The translations under genes and the position numbers were made by a program. From the NCBI GenBank assembly GCA_012838795.1, contig DUOO01000042.1:1-34225 (forward strand): a stretch of DNA of 34,225 bases, in the 5' to 3' direction. This DNA is from Clostridiaceae bacterium (GTDB lineage: Bacteria > Bacillota > Clostridia > Saccharofermentanales > DTU023). Positions 25,018-33,917 of this stretch are shown in pieces; positions within the stretch are counted from its first letter, which is position 1, and each line of letters opens with the position of its first letter. Under the pieces are notes generated by a model. It was not told where the DNA came from. It saw only the letters and a program-made list of their open reading frames with translations, and searched no databases.

Positions 25018-25839
25018 TCAGATTATAATTTCACTACCTGCTGCGAGGTATTCAACTCTGTCACCCATGACCGATTTCAACATTTTATAAGGTTCTATGC
25101 CTGTGCAATGGCAGGTATAATACTTTGTTTTTGTTTCAATCAAATATTTGCCGATTTTATCTATCCTTTCCGGAGTTTCATAATTAGCGGAACCGCCGGA
25201 AAGATGAAAACCGCCGATTACATAATCAGGCATTCGTCCTTTGAGCAAATGAAAATGCTCCAGAATATTGACAATGCCATTATGGGCACAACCGGTAATC
25301 AAAAGAATTTTGTTGTCTTCTTCTATGATGAGATTTTGTTCATGGGCGAAAGTATCCTGTACCTTTTGCCCGTTCTGCTCCATAAGCAAATTGTTATTTG
25401 ATTTTAGAGGTGCTTCTTTTTGAATGACGTTTGAGAATAGTTCGAGTCCATCGCAAATCAAAAAGATATCTGAAGTGAATACGATTTGTTTATTTTCTTT
25501 AAGTTTATCATCCAGTCCGATATAATCTACTTTACCATTAGGACGGACGGAATAATATTTGCCGAAAGCAAGTTGATGTATGAATATCGAAGCCTTTGTG
25601 TTTTCATTAAAAAAAGCTTTCAGGCCTCCGCCATGGTCGTAATGGCCATGAGAAATTATAAGAAAATCAACATCAGCAATGTTTACATTAAGTTTTTCAG
25701 CATTTCTCAGAAATAATTCACTTGCACCCACATCAAACAATATTTTATGTTCCTTTGTTTCAATGTATAGGCTAAGACCATGCTCGCAGCCAAAGTCTTC
25801 CGATATTGCAATGTTTTCTGCCAGAGTTTTAATTAGCAT
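25018..25839 (-). CDS. Metallo-beta-lactamase-fold hydrolase (COG1237 type)
   Basis: A 273-residue hydrolase with the MBL metal motif HGHYDHGGG (His64, His66, Asp68, His69), a later ITGCAHNGIVNI and a C-terminal YYTCHCTGIEPYK segment. The HCTG end is typical of the group annotated as 7,8-dihydropterin-6-methyl-(ribofuranosyl)-aminobenzene-phosphate synthase-like enzymes, but that name comes from distant archaeal members and the substrate here is unknown. AAAGGTGGTGA precedes the ATG, placed in the last codons of the upstream ATPase gene (gap three bases), so the two are translationally coupled. Constant neighbourhood with MinD-ferredoxin ATPases suggests a role with metal clusters or redox cofactors. 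Confidence 0.8.
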   Translation of the reverse strand: MLIKTLAENIAISEDFGCEHGLSLYIETKEHKILFDVGASELFLRNAEKLNVNIADVDFLIISHGHYDHGGGLKAFFNENTKASIFIHQLAFGKYYSVRPNGKVDYIGLDDKLKENKQIVFTSDIFLICDGLELFSNVIQKEAPLKSNNNLLMEQNGQKVQDTFAHEQNLIIEEDNKILLITGCAHNGIVNILEHFHLLKGRMPDYVIGGFHLSGGSANYETPERIDKIGKYLIETKTKYYTCHCTGIEPYKMLKSVMGDRVEYLAAGSEIII

Positions 25840-25842
25840 AAT

Positions 25843-26718
25843 TTAGTCACCACCTTTTTCAAAAAATACATTCATTAATTTGTGATAAATTTCTTTAACT
25901 GCAGTGCCTGATCTGCAATCTATGTCAACAATAGTCTGCCCGTTGTTGACAGCTTTTACTGCATCGCGATCAAACGGTATTCTGCCGGCATAAAGTAATT
26001 TTTGCTTTTTACAGAATTCTTCGATTTTTTCTGTGTTTTCAATATTATTGTCATATTTATTGACACATACGGCCATTTTTATTGCAAAATTTGCTGCTGT
26101 ATTGATAATGCGCTCCAGATCGCTGATACCTGAAATTGACGGTTCTGCAACGATCAAAACCATGTCCGCACCACTAAGCGAAGCAATAACAGGGCATCCT
26201 AAGCCGGGAGAACCGTCAATAATAGCCAGACGAGCATTAACTGCTGCTGATTTCATCCGTTTTTTTACTTCTGTGACAAGCAATCCTGAGGAGCCGCTGC
26301 CCATTTTGAGTTGTGCTGTTGAGAAAACTTTTTTGTTATCAGAATACAGCATCATTTCTCCATCCAAAGAAGGTAACATAGTTATTGCTTTTACGGGACA
26401 AACATATTCACAAACTCCGCAGCCTTCACAAGCAAAGGGATCAACTGAATAATTGTCATGGTTAGAAATTGCGTAGAAACGACAGTATTTCACACATTGA
26501 CCACATCGGATACATAATTCATCATTGATTTGTGCCTTTGACAGCCCGTAATAATCGGTTTTATCCGGTTCGGTTGCCCATGTGGTTATCAGGTGCAAAT
26601 TAGGTGCATCAACATCACAATCGGCATATGCTTTGGCATTTGCAAGCTTGATTAACGCACTCGCTATTGTCGTCTTTCCTGTACCGCCTTTACCGCTGAG
26701 GACAAGCAATTGCTTCAT
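25843..26718 (-). CDS. MinD-superfamily ATPase with two inserted [4Fe-4S] ferredoxin motifs, copy B
   Basis: The 291-residue P-loop ATPase has a deviant Walker A, SGKGGTGKTT (8-17), DCDVDAPN (33-40) and DGSPGLGCP. Between the strands it carries two ferredoxin motifs: Cys69-x2-Cys72-x2-Cys75-x3-Cys79 and Cys97-x2-Cys100-x2-Cys103-x3-Cys107. This is the COG1149 architecture, found in pairs in anaerobes and in the orange-protein cluster of Desulfovibrio. The likely role is ATP-driven electron transfer or metal-cluster handling; this is inference. Its start overlaps the end of copy A by 29 bases, with AAGGAGGTG before the ATG, so the two are made in step and may act as a heterodimer. Confidence 0.88.
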   Translation of the reverse strand: MKQLLVLSGKGGTGKTTIASALIKLANAKAYADCDVDAPNLHLITTWATEPDKTDYYGLSKAQINDELCIRCGQCVKYCRFYAISNHDNYSVDPFACEGCGVCEYVCPVKAITMLPSLDGEMMLYSDNKKVFSTAQLKMGSGSSGLLVTEVKKRMKSAAVNARLAIIDGSPGLGCPVIASLSGADMVLIVAEPSISGISDLERIINTAANFAIKMAVCVNKYDNNIENTEKIEEFCKKQKLLYAGRIPFDRDAVKAVNNGQTIVDIDCRSGTAVKEIYHKLMNVFFEKGGD

Positions 26719-27556
26719 TGAGCACCTCCTTGATCACTCTATTTAATAAGGAAGAGAAGAACTCCCGATACTTTTCACTTTTTCTAACTGCTATCTCGGC
26801 TTGTGAATTCAATTTTCCAAGGTCAATATTAAACGGAATTTTTGTCAAAATTTTAATGTTATTTTCAACACAGAAATTTTCTGCCGGATTTTCATCATCT
26901 AAACATTTGTTAAGAACTACTCCGAACGGCTTATTAAATATTTTGACCAATTCATATACCATATTGAGATTGTGAACACCGAACAATGTAGGTTCAGCAA
27001 CTAATATGCAATAATCCGCATCTTTGATACTTTCCATTACGATACAGGCGCTTCCCGGGGGACAGTCAATAATTATATGCTTACTTGTTTCTGATTTCTT
27101 ATCAAATAGTAGTTTTTTGATGATGGGAATTCCTGAAGCTTCTCCGATATTCATGATTCCTGTATATGTATCTACATTGCCGGAAATTCCTTTTTGAACT
27201 TTGCCAATAACCTTTTCTTTTTCCGTCAATGCTTTTTCAGGACAAACCAGGCTGCATCCGCCACAAGAATGGCAGATATCGTCAAAAACAATCAGATTGT
27301 CTTTGACATAGGCAAGAGCGTTATATCTGCAAAAATCGACACATTTTCGACAACCGATACATAATTCGGGATCTGCTTGCGGAACCTTTACCGATACACT
27401 GTGCTCTGCAAGAATTTCAGGCTTAAAAAACAAATGACCGTTTGGCTCTTCTATATCACAGTCTATATAGATTGATGTTTTTGCTGCCGCAGCTAAATTA
27501 ACCGATATCAGAGTTTTACCTGTACCGCCTTTGCCGCTGAGCACAGCTATTTTCAT
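26690..27556 (-). CDS. MinD-superfamily ATPase with two inserted [4Fe-4S] ferredoxin motifs, copy A
   Basis: The 288-residue paralogue of the next gene. Deviant Walker A SGKGGTGKT (7-15), DCDIEEPN (32-39) and IIDCPPGSAC; ferredoxin motifs are Cys66, Cys69, Cys72, Cys76 and Cys95, Cys98, Cys101, Cys105. An in-frame ATG farther up (27622) would run 22 residues into the NifX gene and lack the conserved start; MKIAVLSGKGG at 27556 fits the family and has GGAGA upstream. The start codon follows the stop of the NifX gene by one base. Tandem A/B copies probably form one complex. Function as for copy B; no partner enzyme of known activity is encoded nearby. Confidence 0.88.
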   Translation of the reverse strand: MKIAVLSGKGGTGKTLISVNLAAAAKTSIYIDCDIEEPNGHLFFKPEILAEHSVSVKVPQADPELCIGCRKCVDFCRYNALAYVKDNLIVFDDICHSCGGCSLVCPEKALTEKEKVIGKVQKGISGNVDTYTGIMNIGEASGIPIIKKLLFDKKSETSKHIIIDCPPGSACIVMESIKDADYCILVAEPTLFGVHNLNMVYELVKIFNKPFGVVLNKCLDDENPAENFCVENNIKILTKIPFNIDLGKLNSQAEIAVRKSEKYREFFSSLLNRVIKEVLNEAIACPQR

Positions 27557-27557
27557 A

Positions 27558-27926
27558 TTAGCAGTCTCCGTTTCCGTGAAAACCGGCATGAATTTCATCG
27601 AGCAATGAGAGTTTACCTGCAATCAAAGCGTCGATATTGTCTTTTGCTGAACCCTCGATTGATTTATAGATTTTTATTTCAGCAGATTTCAGTACTTTAG
27701 CTGCATTTTCTCCCAAACGGAGAACAAGCAAAGTATCTGCCGTATGATCTGCGACTGTTTGTGCAGCCTTGATCCCGGCTCCGCCGGTATCTGCTGTTCC
27801 GCTGTTATTAATATATCGACTTTCTTCCGTTTCCGTATCATATATCAGGAAATAGGGTGTACGTCCAAAAGATGCACATACACCGGAGGTTAGTGTTTTT
27901 TCATCTACGGGAATTGCTATTTTCAT
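27558..27926 (-). CDS. NifX/NifB-family protein (ORP-like), copy 1
   Basis: The 122-residue NifX-type protein starts MKIAIPVDEKTL and has VCASFGRTPYFLIYDTETEE and the glycine turn TADTGGAGIKAAQTVAD, the family core. It lacks the HFGH-like His pair of copy 2. Its C terminus is GFHGNGDC. Relatives include NifX, NafY and the Mo/Cu-binding orange protein, all carriers of metal-sulfur clusters. A TTG at 27938 is part of the ribosome site (TTGGAGAAG), so the ATG at 27926 was chosen. It lies between the DUF134 gene and the ATPase pair, in tight coupling with the latter. The metal bound, if any, cannot be told. Confidence 0.82.
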   Translation of the reverse strand: MKIAIPVDEKTLTSGVCASFGRTPYFLIYDTETEESRYINNSGTADTGGAGIKAAQTVADHTADTLLVLRLGENAAKVLKSAEIKIYKSIEGSAKDNIDALIAGKLSLLDEIHAGFHGNGDC

Positions 27927-27970
27927 AATCTTCTCCAATTCTCTTTTTACTTATTAGTATAATGTTGAAG

Positions 27971-28339
27971 TTATTTGCAACTTGTATTCATACATTTTTT
28001 GCGCCGCTGCTTGAGACATCCATGACCGCAGCCATTGCCCAGTCCGTTACAAAGTCGGTACTCACCGCCTTCAATATGTAGTACCATTCCGTTTACCAAA
28101 GATTTTGCCAACTTCTTCCTGGCATCACCATAAATACCCTGAACGGTGCTGCGGGCGATATTCATTTGTTTGGCACATTCTTCTTGGGTGAAACCTTCCA
28201 AATCGATCAGCCTGATAGTTTCATATTCGTCTACAGTCATATTTACATGGTTTTCTGCGTTTGCCGGCAGATCCAGAGGACCAAATCTGTTATTTTCAGG
28301 TAAACAGCAAACATTTCTACACTTCATCGGCCTTGCCAT
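27971..28339 (-). CDS. DUF134/UPF0251 Cys-rich DNA-binding protein
   Basis: The 122-residue protein begins MARPMKCRNVCC, has a sigma-region-4-like helix-turn-helix (about 35-80; key piece GFTQEECAKQMNIARSTVQ) and ends with a Cys/Gly/Lys-rich tail (Cys97, Cys104, Cys108, Cys116, Cys121). UPF0251 members are predicted DNA-binding proteins of unknown function that often stand next to NifX genes. First gene of the minus-strand operon, just below a promoter with two palindromes, so it may be the regulator that senses metal or redox state through its cysteines; this is inference. GTAGGTAATG precedes the ATG at a slightly long distance. Confidence 0.88.
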   Translation of the reverse strand: MARPMKCRNVCCLPENNRFGPLDLPANAENHVNMTVDEYETIRLIDLEGFTQEECAKQMNIARSTVQGIYGDARKKLAKSLVNGMVLHIEGGEYRLCNGLGNGCGHGCLKQRRKKCMNTSCK

Positions 28340-28420: not shown

Positions 28421-28440
28421 TTAATGGCATATGCCATTAA
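28421..28440. promoter_or_regulatory. Perfect 20-bp palindrome over the start site (operator O1)
   Basis: TTAATGGCATATGCCATTAA is an exact palindrome centred at 28430/28431, at about +1 to +20 of the minus-strand promoter. Position and symmetry are those of a dimeric repressor site. Core TGGCATATGCCA recurs, with one mismatched pair, 36 bp away. Confidence 0.7.
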
Positions 28441-28445
28441 TTAAT

Positions 28446-28473
28446 ATCATATAACATTGGTGGCATATGTCAA
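28446..28473 (-). promoter_or_regulatory. Promoter of the DUF134-NifX-MinD operon
   Basis: On the minus strand TTGACA (28473-28468), a 16-base spacer and TATGAT (28451-28446) form a good sigma-A promoter. Transcription would start near 28438, about 100 bases before the DUF134 start codon. Confidence 0.65.
28461..28472. promoter_or_regulatory. Second palindrome at the -35 box (operator O2)
   Basis: TGGCATATGTCA is the same 12-bp core as O1 with one changed base, and overlaps the -35 box of the minus-strand promoter. Its centre is 36 bp from that of O1, between three and three and a half helical turns. Confidence 0.55.
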
Positions 28474-28549: not shown

Positions 28550-28923
28550 GGGGATGCACTGGTTTCGACGGGATTGTTGAAATTAGGATAGCGAGTAGAG
28601 GGTTCCGTTGGCCTCTTTAAAAAGCGGAGAAATTTTTAAATGCCGAAAAACAACCGGTATTAGCAGCTGCTTAATAATTGCTGCTCCGGGAACCGCCTGA
28701 TCTGCAAGGCGAATTCCCTGTCGATTCGCAGACCTTGCCTTTAGGAGGTTAAATAGGTAAACCTTCATTTCAAAGCTTTGCGATTTGATTGTATTATGAA
28801 GCTACTGCCATTGAACTTCGTCATTAAAGGTCAATGTCAGGAAAAATAAAGTAATGACTGCACTCGGAGAAATCTTAACGGAGGCATTTTCGGACACGGG
28901 TTCAACTCCCGTCATCTCCACCA
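28550..28923 (+). ncRNA. ssrA: Transfer-messenger RNA (tmRNA)
   Basis: tmRNA rescues stalled ribosomes and tags the unfinished protein for proteolysis. The 5' end GGGGATGCACTGGTTTCGAC and the 3' end (T arm GGGTTCAACTCCC, then ATCTCCACCA) form the tRNA-like domain: GGGGATG (28550-28556) pairs with CATCTCC (28913-28919), then A and an encoded CCA. The tag frame probably starts with GCC at 28642 and reads AEKQPVLAAA, followed by two TAA stops (28672-28677). The 374-base length is normal. One-piece form, not permuted. SmpB is not encoded in the window. Confidence 0.95.
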
Positions 28924-28986: not shown

Positions 28987-29043
28987 TGACCAAAAACAGT
29001 TTAGATTTTAGTTTAGACAATGAAGAGAAAAGGAAATAAGGAA

Positions 29044-29577
29044 ATGAAAAGAGTATTTATTTTACTGCTATCTGTAATCATGATTTTGTCTGTCGGATGT
29101 GAAAGGAAGAGTATTGGCACAAACTTAAAAACGGTTGGTGATAAAGTCCTTGAATCTGATTCTGATTTTTCTAATTACAAAGAGATTTTTTCTGATTATC
29201 AAGGTGCGAAAGAGATTACGGAATTTGATAAAAATGTTACTGCGGAAATACCGGTAATAATAATCGGTGATTATTTTTGCAGTGTCTTTTTTATAAATAA
29301 TCGGACGATTAACAGTTTATCACTTGTTTTTTATTCAGAAGATAACGATTTAACCGTAGATGAACTTGAAGAAAAACTTGTGCAAGAATTAAAAAAGGCG
29401 TATCCAAAACTCGAACATTACGAAGAAATAATCAAGGGCAAAGTGTATGAAGGCGAACAATTTTCTGATACCGAAAACGGTTTTTCAGTAGTGTTAACAA
29501 AATATATAGATGATTCGTTTTATGATGATAATATAACAATTACATATTCGAAAGACAAATTGTTTAAAAACAAATAA
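29044..29577 (+). CDS. Putative lipoprotein of unknown function
   Basis: Not a recognised family. The 177-residue product starts MKRVFILLLSVIMILSVGC, a short lysine-arginine start, hydrophobic core and lipobox LSVGC, so it is probably lipid-anchored outside the membrane. The mature part (about 155 residues) is acidic and rich in Asp, Glu, Ile and Tyr, with no motif seen. An upstream in-frame ATG at 29020 has no ribosome site; AAAAGG (29028-29033) fits the ATG at 29044, giving a cleaner signal peptide. It is markedly more AT-rich than the core genes and lies right behind tmRNA, a common integration site, so horizontal origin is possible. Confidence 0.65.
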   Translation: MKRVFILLLSVIMILSVGCERKSIGTNLKTVGDKVLESDSDFSNYKEIFSDYQGAKEITEFDKNVTAEIPVIIIGDYFCSVFFINNRTINSLSLVFYSEDNDLTVDELEEKLVQELKKAYPKLEHYEEIIKGKVYEGEQFSDTENGFSVVLTKYIDDSFYDDNITITYSKDKLFKNK

Positions 29578-29699
29578 ACAACAATAACAGCCTGTTTTAT
29601 TATCTCAATATTGAAAGAAACATTTAATGATAATATGTTAGATGAATTTGTTAATATATAGATGGTAAATTCGTTTAGATGTTATAAATTGGAGGATAC

Positions 29700-30338
29700 A
29701 TGCTCAATTCACTGATAAAAAAGAATGAGAAATGGTGGTTCTTGATCATCATAGGCATTTTAGTGATAGGACTGTTGGGAGCCATTTTGGGAGATAAAGC
29801 AGATAACGATGCTGAAACACCGGAAAATAAAGTCGAAACTCTGTTCGAAGAATTACCGGCTACTATTCCATATGAAGATTCTGATTTTAAATTGATTAGT
29901 GTTGAAATGTTTGAAAACGAGTATGAGAACAGTTTTACACAATATTTTATTGTTATTCTTGATGTTTCGGATTTGACTGAAAAGCAACAAAACGATTTAT
30001 TTAAAAAGGATCTGCACTTTAATAGTAATTTTTCTTTTGACGGTAAAACATATGATGTTAACTATGTAAATAAAATCCGGTATAAAGATATTCAAAATAT
30101 TTATTTGTATCTTAAAACCGATTCAACCGAAGAAATCAGAGATAGCGTTTCTGATTTAGACTTTACAATAGAATTATGGACAGATCCGGACCAAAAATCG
30201 GAAGTAGATACATATAAGTATCAAGTTAACTTTAAAGCACCTCATAAGACAACTAAAGAAATGGAAGACATTGATCTTGAATATTTTATTAAAGGATTGC
30301 GCAAGAAGGAAGAAAGCTTTCAAGATCTTTTATATTAA
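29700..30338 (+). CDS. Membrane-anchored protein of unknown function
   Basis: Not a recognised family. The 212-residue protein has a short cytoplasmic start (MLNSLIKKNEKWW), one membrane span (about 13-31, LIIIGILVIGLLGAILG) and an acidic extracytoplasmic domain rich in Asp, Glu, Tyr and Phe. The pattern of alternating charged and aromatic residues suggests a beta-rich domain, but no motif is seen. GGAGG at 29691-29695 precedes the ATG, four bases away, a short spacing. AT-rich like its neighbour. The two genes are 122 bases apart, and a shared transcript is possible; no terminator is seen between or after. Confidence 0.6.
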   Translation: MLNSLIKKNEKWWFLIIIGILVIGLLGAILGDKADNDAETPENKVETLFEELPATIPYEDSDFKLISVEMFENEYENSFTQYFIVILDVSDLTEKQQNDLFKKDLHFNSNFSFDGKTYDVNYVNKIRYKDIQNIYLYLKTDSTEEIRDSVSDLDFTIELWTDPDQKSEVDTYKYQVNFKAPHKTTKEMEDIDLEYFIKGLRKKEESFQDLLY

Positions 30339-31018: not shown

Positions 31019-31091
31019 TTAATTGTATTGTTTTAAATTTAGAAGTTGTTTTCCGGTTTTCCGAAAATGGGCGAGGAGGTGTGAAGATCAT

Positions 31092-31310
31092 ATGAAAAGA
31101 TCATTTAAATTACAAAATCTGGGCTGTGCAAATTGTGCAGCTAAAATTGAAAACGACATTGCACAATTGGCCGGAGTTAATTCAGTCAGAGTTAATTTTA
31201 TGACGGAAAAGTTAATTTTAGATGCTGATCAAGAAGAATTTGTATCAATCCTGGATCAAGCACAAACCATTGCGAGCAAATATGAACCTGATCTTTTAAT
31301 TATCAAATAA
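31092..31310 (+). CDS. Free-standing heavy-metal-associated (HMA) domain protein
   Basis: The 72-residue protein is a single HMA domain: GCANC motif with Cys12 and Cys15, then AAKIENDIAQLAGVNSVRVN, the usual ferredoxin-like fold. It would bind a soft metal ion and hand it to the pump encoded next. An open frame from 31023 would add 23 residues, but GAGGAGGTG (31074-31082) and the start MKRSFKLQNLGC favour the ATG at 31092, at a long spacing of about 11 bases. It directly follows the operator and promoter, so it is the first gene of the efflux operon. A copper chaperone role is possible, but the neighbouring pump is of the Zn/Cd type. Confidence 0.82.
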   Translation: MKRSFKLQNLGCANCAAKIENDIAQLAGVNSVRVNFMTEKLILDADQEEFVSILDQAQTIASKYEPDLLIIK

Positions 31311-31368
31311 GGATTGCAAGGCGGACAAAATTTTAGTATTACGTGTTGAAACAGGGAAGCACTAAATT

Positions 31369-31398
31369 CTAAAAAGGATTACCGGTTTTTAGGGTAAT
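31369..31398 (+). promoter_or_regulatory. Two overlapping hairpins before the P-type ATPase gene
   Basis: CTAAAAA (31369-31375) pairs with TTTTTAG (31386-31392), while ATTACC (31378-31383) pairs with GGTAAT (31393-31398). The two stems exclude each other. They lie in the 119-base gap between the HMA gene and the ATPase gene, which lacks a clear ribosome site. Confidence 0.28.
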
Positions 31399-31429
31399 AA
31401 TGCTTTAATTTAATATAACATTTAACATT

Positions 31430-33373
31430 ATGAATAAAATAAAAAATCTAAATAAAAGTGAAAAAATATTATTAATTCGAATTTTCTTCTCAGCTTTTGC
31501 GTTTGTTCTGCTCTTACCTTTATATTATGGTAAATCAGTTGATCGGAGTAATAACTGGACTATTTTTAATCCCGATGGGGAAAATTATCTTTTCTTGATA
31601 ATTTATCTGATCATTTATTTTATTATTGGCTATGATATCATACGAACCGCAATTCGTAATATTTTCAAAGGAACAATATTCGATGAAAATTTCCTCATGA
31701 CTATTGCGACAATCGGTGCATTTTTAATCGGAGAATATCCGGAAGGAATTGCCGTAATGTTGTTTTATCAAGTCGGTGAATTTTTTCAAAGACAAGCTGT
31801 CAACAAATCAAGAAAATCGATTGCAGAATTGATGGAAATTGCACCGGAATATGCGAATATTATGCTCAATGGTGAGCTAACTCAGGTAGATCCCTATGAA
31901 ATAAGTGTTGATGACGAAATCATCGTCTTGCCGGGTGAACGTATCCCTCTGGACGGAACAGTTCTGACCGGAAGTTCTGCAATTGACACCTCAGCTTTGA
32001 CCGGGGAATCTTTACCCCGGGATGTATTTCCCGATGATCAAGTAATCAGCGGCTGTATCAATCTTTCAGGAAAACTGACGCTTAAAGTAGAAAAGGAATA
32101 TGATGATTCTACAGTCGCCAAAATCCTGGAATTAGTTGAAAATGCTTCCGATCAAAAAGCCGAATCCGAAGTTTTTGCCACAACTTTCGCCCGTTATTAT
32201 ACACCGATTGTTGTTTTGGCGGCTCTGGTTATTGCGATCCTTCCGCCTCTTATATATAAGCAAGCATTCAGCATTTGGTTGAAACAATCTTTAGTTTTTC
32301 TGGTTGTTTCCTGTCCTTGTGCATTAGTCGTATCGATACCTCTAACTTTTTTCGGCGGAATCGGCGGTGCTTCGAAAGCCGGAATTTTAGTCAAAGGCAG
32401 TAATTATCTTGAATATTTAGCCAAAACTAAAAAAATCATTTTTGACAAAACCGGAACTCTGACTAAAGGAAATTTTGCAGTCAGTCAAATTTGTCCGTTA
32501 AGTTCAAGCGGAATTTCCGGAGAAACTTTATTAGAAATAGCTGCCTATAGCGAATATTATTCAAATCATCCAATTGCAGCGGGCATTATTGCAGCATATG
32601 GAAAATCGATTGATCCTGATTTAATAGAAAATGCAGAAGAAATCAGTGGTCATGGTATACTTGCCAAAATTGACGGAAACACCGTATTATCCGGCAATGC
32701 CAAATTAATGCAAAAATTTAAAATTGAATTTCCCGGCAACAATGAATTCGGGACAATCGTATATGTGGCTCTGAATAATAAATATTTAGGTTATCTTGCA
32801 ATTGAAGATCAAGTGAAAACGGATGCCGGACGAGCAATCAAAGATTTACATCAAATCGGTATTTCAGAAATTTCCATGTTTACCGGAGACCAAGATCTAA
32901 CAGCCAATAAAATATCCGGACAATTGGGACTCGATAAATATCAGGCTGGGCTTTTGCCGGCGGAAAAAGTTGAACATTTAGAAAAAGCTTTAACTGAAAA
33001 AACCGATGCCAATGAATTAATTGCTTATGTCGGAGACGGAATTAACGATGCACCTGTTCTGGCAAGAGCAGACATCGGTATTGCCATGGGAGGAATGGGT
33101 TCAGATGCGGCAATTGAAGCTGCTGATGTGGTAATTATGAATGATCAACCTTCAAAAATAGCTGAAGCAATTTTAATCGGTCGCAAAACATTTCGTATTG
33201 TCAAACAAAACATCATTTTTGCCTTGGGAGTCAAATTCGTAATTATAATTTTAGCAATATTAGGAATTGCCAACATGTGGCTGGCAGTTTTTGGCGATGT
33301 GGGGGTTACAATTATTGCAGTATTTAATGCAATGCGTGCTCTCAATCCCAGGCTCTCGATAAGACATACTTAG
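31430..33373 (+). CDS. cadA: P1B-2-type heavy-metal (Zn/Cd/Pb) exporting ATPase
   Basis: A 647-residue membrane pump that exports divalent soft metals with ATP. Motifs: CPC (Cys295-Pro296-Cys297) in the sixth span, TGES in the actuator, DKTGT with phosphorylated Asp339, SNHP (the HP locus) and GDGINDAP. Near the end GVKFVI supplies a Lys in the seventh span and FGDVG the DxG of the eighth, the signature of the Zn/Cd/Pb subgroup, not Cu. The N terminus lacks an HMA domain, which is encoded separately by the upstream gene. No ribosome site is seen before the ATG at 31430, and no better start exists after the in-frame stop at 31406. Regulated by the upstream operator, by inference. Confidence 0.92.
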   Translation: MNKIKNLNKSEKILLIRIFFSAFAFVLLLPLYYGKSVDRSNNWTIFNPDGENYLFLIIYLIIYFIIGYDIIRTAIRNIFKGTIFDENFLMTIATIGAFLIGEYPEGIAVMLFYQVGEFFQRQAVNKSRKSIAELMEIAPEYANIMLNGELTQVDPYEISVDDEIIVLPGERIPLDGTVLTGSSAIDTSALTGESLPRDVFPDDQVISGCINLSGKLTLKVEKEYDDSTVAKILELVENASDQKAESEVFATTFARYYTPIVVLAALVIAILPPLIYKQAFSIWLKQSLVFLVVSCPCALVVSIPLTFFGGIGGASKAGILVKGSNYLEYLAKTKKIIFDKTGTLTKGNFAVSQICPLSSSGISGETLLEIAAYSEYYSNHPIAAGIIAAYGKSIDPDLIENAEEISGHGILAKIDGNTVLSGNAKLMQKFKIEFPGNNEFGTIVYVALNNKYLGYLAIEDQVKTDAGRAIKDLHQIGISEISMFTGDQDLTANKISGQLGLDKYQAGLLPAEKVEHLEKALTEKTDANELIAYVGDGINDAPVLARADIGIAMGGMGSDAAIEAADVVIMNDQPSKIAEAILIGRKTFRIVKQNIIFALGVKFVIIILAILGIANMWLAVFGDVGVTIIAVFNAMRALNPRLSIRHT

Positions 33374-33417
33374 ATCTTTATTAAACAACATTAAAACAAC
33401 GAATTTTTTCTTCATTG

Positions 33418-33474
33418 AAAAGCCTCCGGAGTTCATGTCGTTAACTTTTACACAATTGGAACTCCGGAAGCTTT
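33418..33474. terminator. Bidirectional terminator between the metal pump and the ArsR gene
   Basis: AAAGC-C-TCCGGAGTTC (33419-33434) pairs with GAACTCCGGA-A-GCTTT (33459-33474), a 10-bp stem, one C-A mismatch and a further 5 or 6 bp, loop of 24 bases. T-rich ends on both strands suit the two convergent genes. Confidence 0.72.
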
Positions 33475-33497
33475 ATATGTAAGAAAAACTTTAGCAA

Positions 33498-33872
33498 TTA
33501 CTTATGATAGTGGCGTTTGCTCGGACAAACCATATTGAAATAACTGTCAATCATCTGATGGATTAAATTCGCTAAATCGGTTTCCGCCAATTTATAATAA
33601 ACCTCTTTACCGTCACGACGACTGGTAATTAAGCCATGAAGCTTCAGACTTCTTAAATGATGTGCTACAGCAGCCGGACTCATATCAACAGCAGATGCAA
33701 TATTAATACCACATTCTTCCGTATGACAAAGAATCCACAGAATTCTTAAACGAGTACTGTCATTAAGTTGTTTAAACAAATCTGCAGCCTCTATAAATTT
33801 TTCTTCAGACGGCATCAGAGCCAAAATCTTTTCTGTATCTTTCCCATGATCATGCGGTAATTTGTCAGTCAT
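33498..33872 (-). CDS. ArsR/SmtB-family metal-responsive repressor
   Basis: The 124-residue winged-helix protein has the ArsR core: LFKQLNDSTRLRILWILCHTE, then the recognition helix VDMSPAAVAHHLRSLKLHGL and the wing RRDGKEVYYKL. The CadC-type metal motif ELCVCD is here EECGIN, keeping one Cys only, and the alpha5 zinc-site residues of CzrA are not conserved. Other candidate ligands are HDH near the N terminus and CPSKRHYHK at the C terminus. An open frame from 33905 adds 11 residues, but GGAGG before the ATG at 33872 decides the start. Convergent to the pump gene, downstream of the serpin by 45 bases. Likely represses the 30965 promoter. Confidence 0.87.
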   Translation of the reverse strand: MTDKLPHDHGKDTEKILALMPSEEKFIEAADLFKQLNDSTRLRILWILCHTEECGINIASAVDMSPAAVAHHLRSLKLHGLITSRRDGKEVYYKLAETDLANLIHQMIDSYFNMVCPSKRHYHK

Positions 33873-33917
33873 TGGATTTCCTCCTCCCTTGAGTTTTGCA
33901 TTCAACCTTAGGATTAA

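Follow-up and report, generated by a model that had tools for sequence, protein, structure and literature searches.

The window, the whole stretch of 34,225 nucleotides analysed here, carries on its minus strand a metal-cluster operon that opens with a gene of the DUF134/UPF0251 family (Table 1). The gene order of this operon, with the metallo-beta-lactamase-fold gene last, is shared by many relatives. The TTG start listed for the first MinD/NUBPL-type ATPase is probably too far upstream. Many loci begin with a DUF5320 gene, which places the palindrome pair described below about 400 bp upstream of DUF134; in this window the interval from the pair to DUF134 contains no such gene. A tmRNA gene (28550-28923, tag AEKQPVLAAA) is divergent from DUF134 and was not found in the DUF134 loci of 30 relatives; this neighbourhood is not conserved. 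Farther along the window, two consecutive frames of 185 and 212 aa (29020-30338) have no Pfam match. They are followed by a gene for a heavy-metal-type P-type ATPase (31023-33905); a small frame upstream of it contains GCANC, which resembles a metal-binding motif, and an ArsR-type regulator is encoded convergently.

Table 1. Features of the DUF134 operon and its promoter region in the window
Feature	Position	Strand	Basis or remark
MBL-fold (metallo-beta-lactamase-fold) hydrolase	25018..25839	-	PF00753, E 2.1e-11; last gene of the conserved set
MinD-type P-loop ATPase (2) with inserted 4Fe-4S ferredoxin domain	25843..26718	-	Domain matches
MinD/NUBPL-type P-loop ATPase (1) with inserted 4Fe-4S ferredoxin domain	26690..27622	-	Domain matches
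NifX-like protein (Nitro_FeMo-Co domain)	27558..27938	-	PF02579, E 1.3e-20
DUF134/UPF0251 protein, 122 aa, proposed repressor	27971..28339	-	PF02001, E 2.9e-19; covariation; AlphaFold2 model, Foldseek
Operator 2 (putative), TTAATGGCATATGCCATTAA	28421..28440	-	Promoter-distal member of the pair; spans about +1 to +20 of the transcript; equivalent site in relatives
Predicted -10 box TATGAT, spacer 16 bp	28446..28451	-	Sequence; conservation in paired loci
Operator 1 (putative), TTGACATATGCCA	28461..28473	-	Contains the -35 hexamer; same position reads TTGACA in 114/115 paired loci
Predicted -35 box (DUF134 promoter), TTGACA	28468..28473	-	Sequence; conserved in 114/115 loci

Two palindromes precede the DUF134 gene. 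TTAATGGCATATGCCATTAA (28421-28440) is a perfect 20-bp palindrome with a 12-bp core at 28425-28436 and is the only perfect palindrome of at least 16 bp in the window, for which a first-order Markov model expects 0.025 palindromes of at least 20 bp. TGGCATATGTCA (28461-28472) has one mismatch to this core and lies at a start-to-start distance of 36 bp. Both points made in the sequence-only reading, two matching palindromes 36 bp apart and a near copy of the core that overlaps the -35 box, hold in position and sequence, and the site at 28461-28473 takes in TTGACA. The core at up to two mismatches occurs three times in the window against 1.5 expected; by itself it is common enough that support comes from the occurrence of two sites together and from their conservation. 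The genome contains one instance of the pair pattern. A third genomic copy, TGGCATATGYCA on contig C49, is the sole other one and lies within a coding frame, and it was set aside as a chance match.

Read along the minus strand, operator 1 with the -35 box comes first, followed by the -10 box, operator 2, the leader and, at 28339, the start codon of DUF134. This geometry recurs among 115 paired loci: the spacer between the boxes is 16 bp in 90, the -10 box is TATAAT in 63 and deviates from it by at most one base in 101, and operator 2 starts 5-15 nt past it. The distance between the sites varies between 32 and 41 bp without a fixed relation to the helical repeat; this variability suggests independent blocking and gives no indication of a rigid cooperative contact. 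Strong promoters covered at both ends indicate repression. Two like operators overlap the core promoter of the operon that encodes the regulator itself, the arrangement that marks a two-operator autogenous repressor. The sequence-only reading had proposed a two-operator repression layout, and sites over the -35 box and at +1 are positions from which a repressor would be expected to act.

The evidence is comparative throughout: conservation, co-occurrence, covariation, promoter geometry and regulon were all computed. For conservation, DUF134 loci were gathered by protein similarity alone, with the motif ignored. Two TGRCATATGYCA sites 32-40 bp apart and within 700 bp upstream of DUF134 are found in 61 of 80 loci, so the palindrome is conserved upstream of orthologous DUF134 genes, which had been named beforehand as the check on the idea. 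Two more loci have the pair at about -818 and some others end at contig edges, while the reversed sequence of the same 80 loci (774 kb) gives 0 pairs. Isolates among the sources include Oscillibacter, Clostridium, Herbinix, Thermoclostridium, Anaerosporobacter, Anaerovirgula and Thermoactinomyces; metagenome sources are labelled Synergistaceae, Negativicutes and Anaerolineaceae, bin labels that may be wrong.

Whole genomes were searched with the pattern TGACATATGN{24,32}GNCATATGNC. It is carried by 41 of 148 relatives, that is by 40 of 90 with a DUF134 match and by 1 of 58 without (p = 8e-10, from a Fisher test that treats species as independent and so overstates significance). In the lone carrier without a match, the pair sits at a contig end and adjoins a DUF5320 gene. 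Across the phylum, 48 of 348 genomes carry the pattern and all 48 have a PF02001 protein, a family present in 232 of the 348. When a close DUF134 relative is defined as a best E of at most 1e-36, a cut set by eye at an identity gap, the pattern occurs in 39 of 50 genomes with such a relative versus 9 of 298 others (p = 6e-33, overstated in the same way). The other 11 of the 50 lack a strict pair, and some may have degenerate or single sites; in four of the nine carriers without a close relative (G176, G371, G393, G486) DUF134 lies in a longer frame. The pattern read backwards has 0 matches in every genome searched, and these zero controls, together with the effect size, are a stronger argument than the p values. 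Of seven same-genus genomes, the window's own included, five (G001, G002, G003, G005, G006) have neither a detectable DUF134 nor the pair, and the system is thus patchy within the genus.

Pairs that lie away from DUF134 mostly precede partner genes of the operon. They are found before NifX-MinD-MinD (L117), DUF5320-NifX-MinD (L140, L142), DUF5320 and MBL-fold genes (L138), a group of DUF5320, NifU-like and NifX genes (L188), and lone NifX-like genes (L144, L192). Pieces of a split-up operon tend to retain an operator pair. Three cases are less clear: one pair lies between DUF5320 and FeoA/FeoB-like genes (L128), one adjoins an antiporter-like gene (L131) and one precedes a glutamate-synthase-like gene (L103). 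A pair before an apparent spore-germination gene (G153; L208) occurs without a close DUF134 and is perhaps spurious. In three of the longer frames mentioned above (L182, L203, L204), DUF134 runs on into NifX-like sequence with the operator pair directly upstream; for L203:1557-2294, Pfam confirms DUF134 and Nitro_FeMo-Co in one protein.

The DUF134 protein of the window belongs to PF02001 (69.9 bits, curated cut-off 27) and falls short of the NCBIfam equivalog PRK04217 (58.2 bits, cut-off 115). Judged by its sequence, it is a divergent branch of its family. Its nine cysteines agree with an earlier estimate of nine or so. Cys11 (95%) and Cys97 (94%) are conserved in the window's class of DUF134 and absent from the other class, and Cys104 and Cys108 are common in both. 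Sigma-70 region 4 models match the protein at E of about 1e-5, at or near the cut-off, and only such region 4-like matches were found in its 122 aa, without the region 2 that a sigma-70 factor combines with region 4. The AlphaFold2 model is confident in the helix-turn-helix only and weak elsewhere (mean pLDDT 63); sigma-factor region 4 ranks first in Foldseek, at E-values of 0.06 or worse. The recognition helix spans approximately residues 62-70 (ARSTVQGIY) and aligns with region 4.2 of the organism's own sigma factor (QEECAKQMNIARSTVQGIYGDARKKL in the alignment). By this alignment, residues 64 and 68 are the positions that we take to be equivalent to E585 and Q589 of E. coli sigma-70. E585 and Q589 contact the -35 element.

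Specificity was investigated by comparing each protein column with the operator bases in the 115 DUF134 proteins that have an upstream pair. The strongest column by far for base 3 of the second operator is 64 (z 26.8; next 4.7). Ser64 goes with G at this base in 23 of 23 proteins and Thr64 (n=88) with A in 71, G in 16 and T in 1 (Fisher p = 1.3e-13 for Ser/Thr64 versus base 3). On a tree computed with the recognition helix excluded, the residue changes between Ser and Thr 12 times, and the independent contrasts on the best tree run as predicted in about 10.5, opposite in 0 and without difference in 1.5. The sign test on these contrasts (median p 0.0005) has to be read with care, because the tree is weakly resolved and one contrast only lies on well-supported branches. 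The sixteen Thr64 proteins with G at base 3 mean that residue 64 is not the whole code. Several of these exceptions have Arg68 or outer C/G changes; operators like GGGCATATG go with Arg68. It is suggestive that residue 68 would be a second specificity position for outer operator bases; on the tree, the association of residue 68 with these bases has no significance. DUF134 had been named earlier as the candidate binder, a role that both the co-occurrence and the covariation of helix and operator favour.

Taken as a whole, the palindromes are very probably an operator pair for DUF134, which would be the autogenous repressor of its own ORP-like metal-cluster operon. For this promoter we infer that DUF134 binds, dimerises, represses and is released by a signal. 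A DUF134 dimer would read each palindrome through its sigma-70 region 4-like helix-turn-helix, with operator 1 covering the -35 box and operator 2 the transcription start, so that RNA polymerase would be kept off or held at the promoter. DUF134, the NifX-like protein, the two MinD-type ATPases with ferredoxin domains and the metallo-beta-lactamase-fold protein would all be repressed. Residue 64 would set base 3 of the half-site, Ser reading TGGCAT and Thr mostly TGACAT (the contrast of TGGCATATGCCA and TGACATATGTCA), and residue 68 seems to influence the outer half-site bases. The most plausible release signal would be the state of a metal or Fe-S cluster, with either the conserved cysteines or the NifX-like partner as sensor; the cysteines and the NifX fusions make this a reasonable guess, no more.

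Different roles for the protein and different binders were also considered. DUF134 might bind the sites yet activate, or switch between activation and repression with cluster state. A helix-turn-helix that resembles sigma region 4 would suit this, as would the overlap with the -35 box, which is compatible with activation in some systems. Near-consensus boxes (TTGACA in 114/115 loci, TATAAT in 63/115) hardly need help, however, and a protein bound at operator 2, at or just past +1, would block polymerase, which leaves activation an unlikely reading. It is likewise unlikely that the palindromes are bound by another, unlinked regulator of anaerobes with DUF134 as just one of its targets. The few genomes that have a pair without a close DUF134 relative could be explained this way, but an unrelated binder does not predict that, of all DUF134 columns, it is one in the recognition helix that follows the operator base most closely. 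Furthermore, DUF134 is present in nearly all carriers and the sites are mostly confined to the DUF134 gene set.

The palindromes sit between DUF134 and ssrA, the divergent tmRNA gene, in the window and could in principle serve the latter. This is very improbable: the 30 relatives' loci have no tmRNA though most of them carry the pair, same-genus genomes without DUF134 are also without the pair, and the promoter elements within the pair point to DUF134. On these grounds ssrA was rejected as the regulated gene. Hardly any credence is given to a chance arrangement or to an RNA stem-loop in the leader. Palindrome 2 would indeed be transcribed, yet site 1 is outside the transcript of this promoter and equally conserved, and chance is refuted by the conservation tests, with 0 pairs in the reversed controls.

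The preferred reading, autogenous repression by DUF134, has partial parallels in known systems. A NifX/ORP-type gene with MinD-type Fe-S ATPases is the gene content by which ORP complex genes are recognised, and the window has it. The orp operons of Desulfovibrio vulgaris (ORange Protein complex, DVU2103-2109) are controlled by sigma54, DVU2106 and IHF (PMC3897727, PMC6345978). Their gene set is related, with a NifX/ORP-type protein and MinD-type Fe-S ATPases, and the D. vulgaris regulator also has palindromic binding sites and, by overlapping its own sigma70 promoter, represses it (PMC3897727, PMC6345978). That regulator is a sigma54 enhancer-binding activator, whereas the protein predicted to act here is small and sigma-region-4-like, at what appears to be an ordinary sigma70 promoter; no enhancer-binding protein was found among the operon genes examined. 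Sigma-70 region 4 itself (SigR 5fgm; E. coli SigE with -35 DNA 2h27) shares with DUF134 a helix-turn-helix of about 45 residues, by profile and by fold with weak Foldseek scores, and TGACA, the half-site sequence, also forms the core of the -35 consensus. In contrast to a sigma factor, DUF134 is without region 2 and appears to read a palindrome. Textbook two-operator autogenous repressors likewise have two like operators that flank the promoter and the regulator gene in the operon; the differences are that the DUF134 family is without a characterised member and that operator 1 includes the -35 hexamer itself.

Tsac_2480 (UPF0251) is among the secondary mutations in adapted rex-deletion strains of Thermoanaerobacterium saccharolyticum (PMC5886521). 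The searchable literature yielded no DUF134/UPF0251 regulator or operator, in line with the sequence-only reading, which knew of no described UPF0251 operator; judged by title and abstract, none of the 40 papers listed among the 52 that contain one of the motif strings concerns this system. A widespread family without known function thus gains a predicted operator, promoter architecture, regulon and specificity residue, and these predictions can all be tested with short oligonucleotides. The regulon marks a metal-cluster set made up of DUF5320, NifX, MinD-ferredoxin ATPases, a metallo-beta-lactamase fold and sometimes a NifU-like protein, and the DUF134 signal, if found, would tell the purpose of this gene set in Clostridia. 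A broader proposal, offered tentatively as possible rather than probable, is that DUF134 repressors descend from or converge with sigma region 4 and retain its specificity for the -35 element, read an inverted TGACA repeat and so mask the hexamer of sigma, use a one-residue code at the E585-equivalent position and sense an Fe-S or molybdenum-type cluster via their cysteines or a NifX partner, which in some species is fused to DUF134.

The other class of DUF134 has the helix SRPTFFRI. A de novo inverted-repeat search upstream of its genes (helix SRPTF) gave nothing significant. In a targeted scan, a third of shuffled sequences reach the score of a single hit, so that only high-scoring cases with two sites are suggestive. 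About six loci seem to have a related pair, TTGACATANGTTCATAA / TTATGAACANATGACCA, approximately 40 bp apart upstream of DUF134 (L152, L153, L156, L157, L161, L176), and L181 a single site of this kind. The two-operator layout may hold, with a shifted sequence, for more of the DUF134 family.
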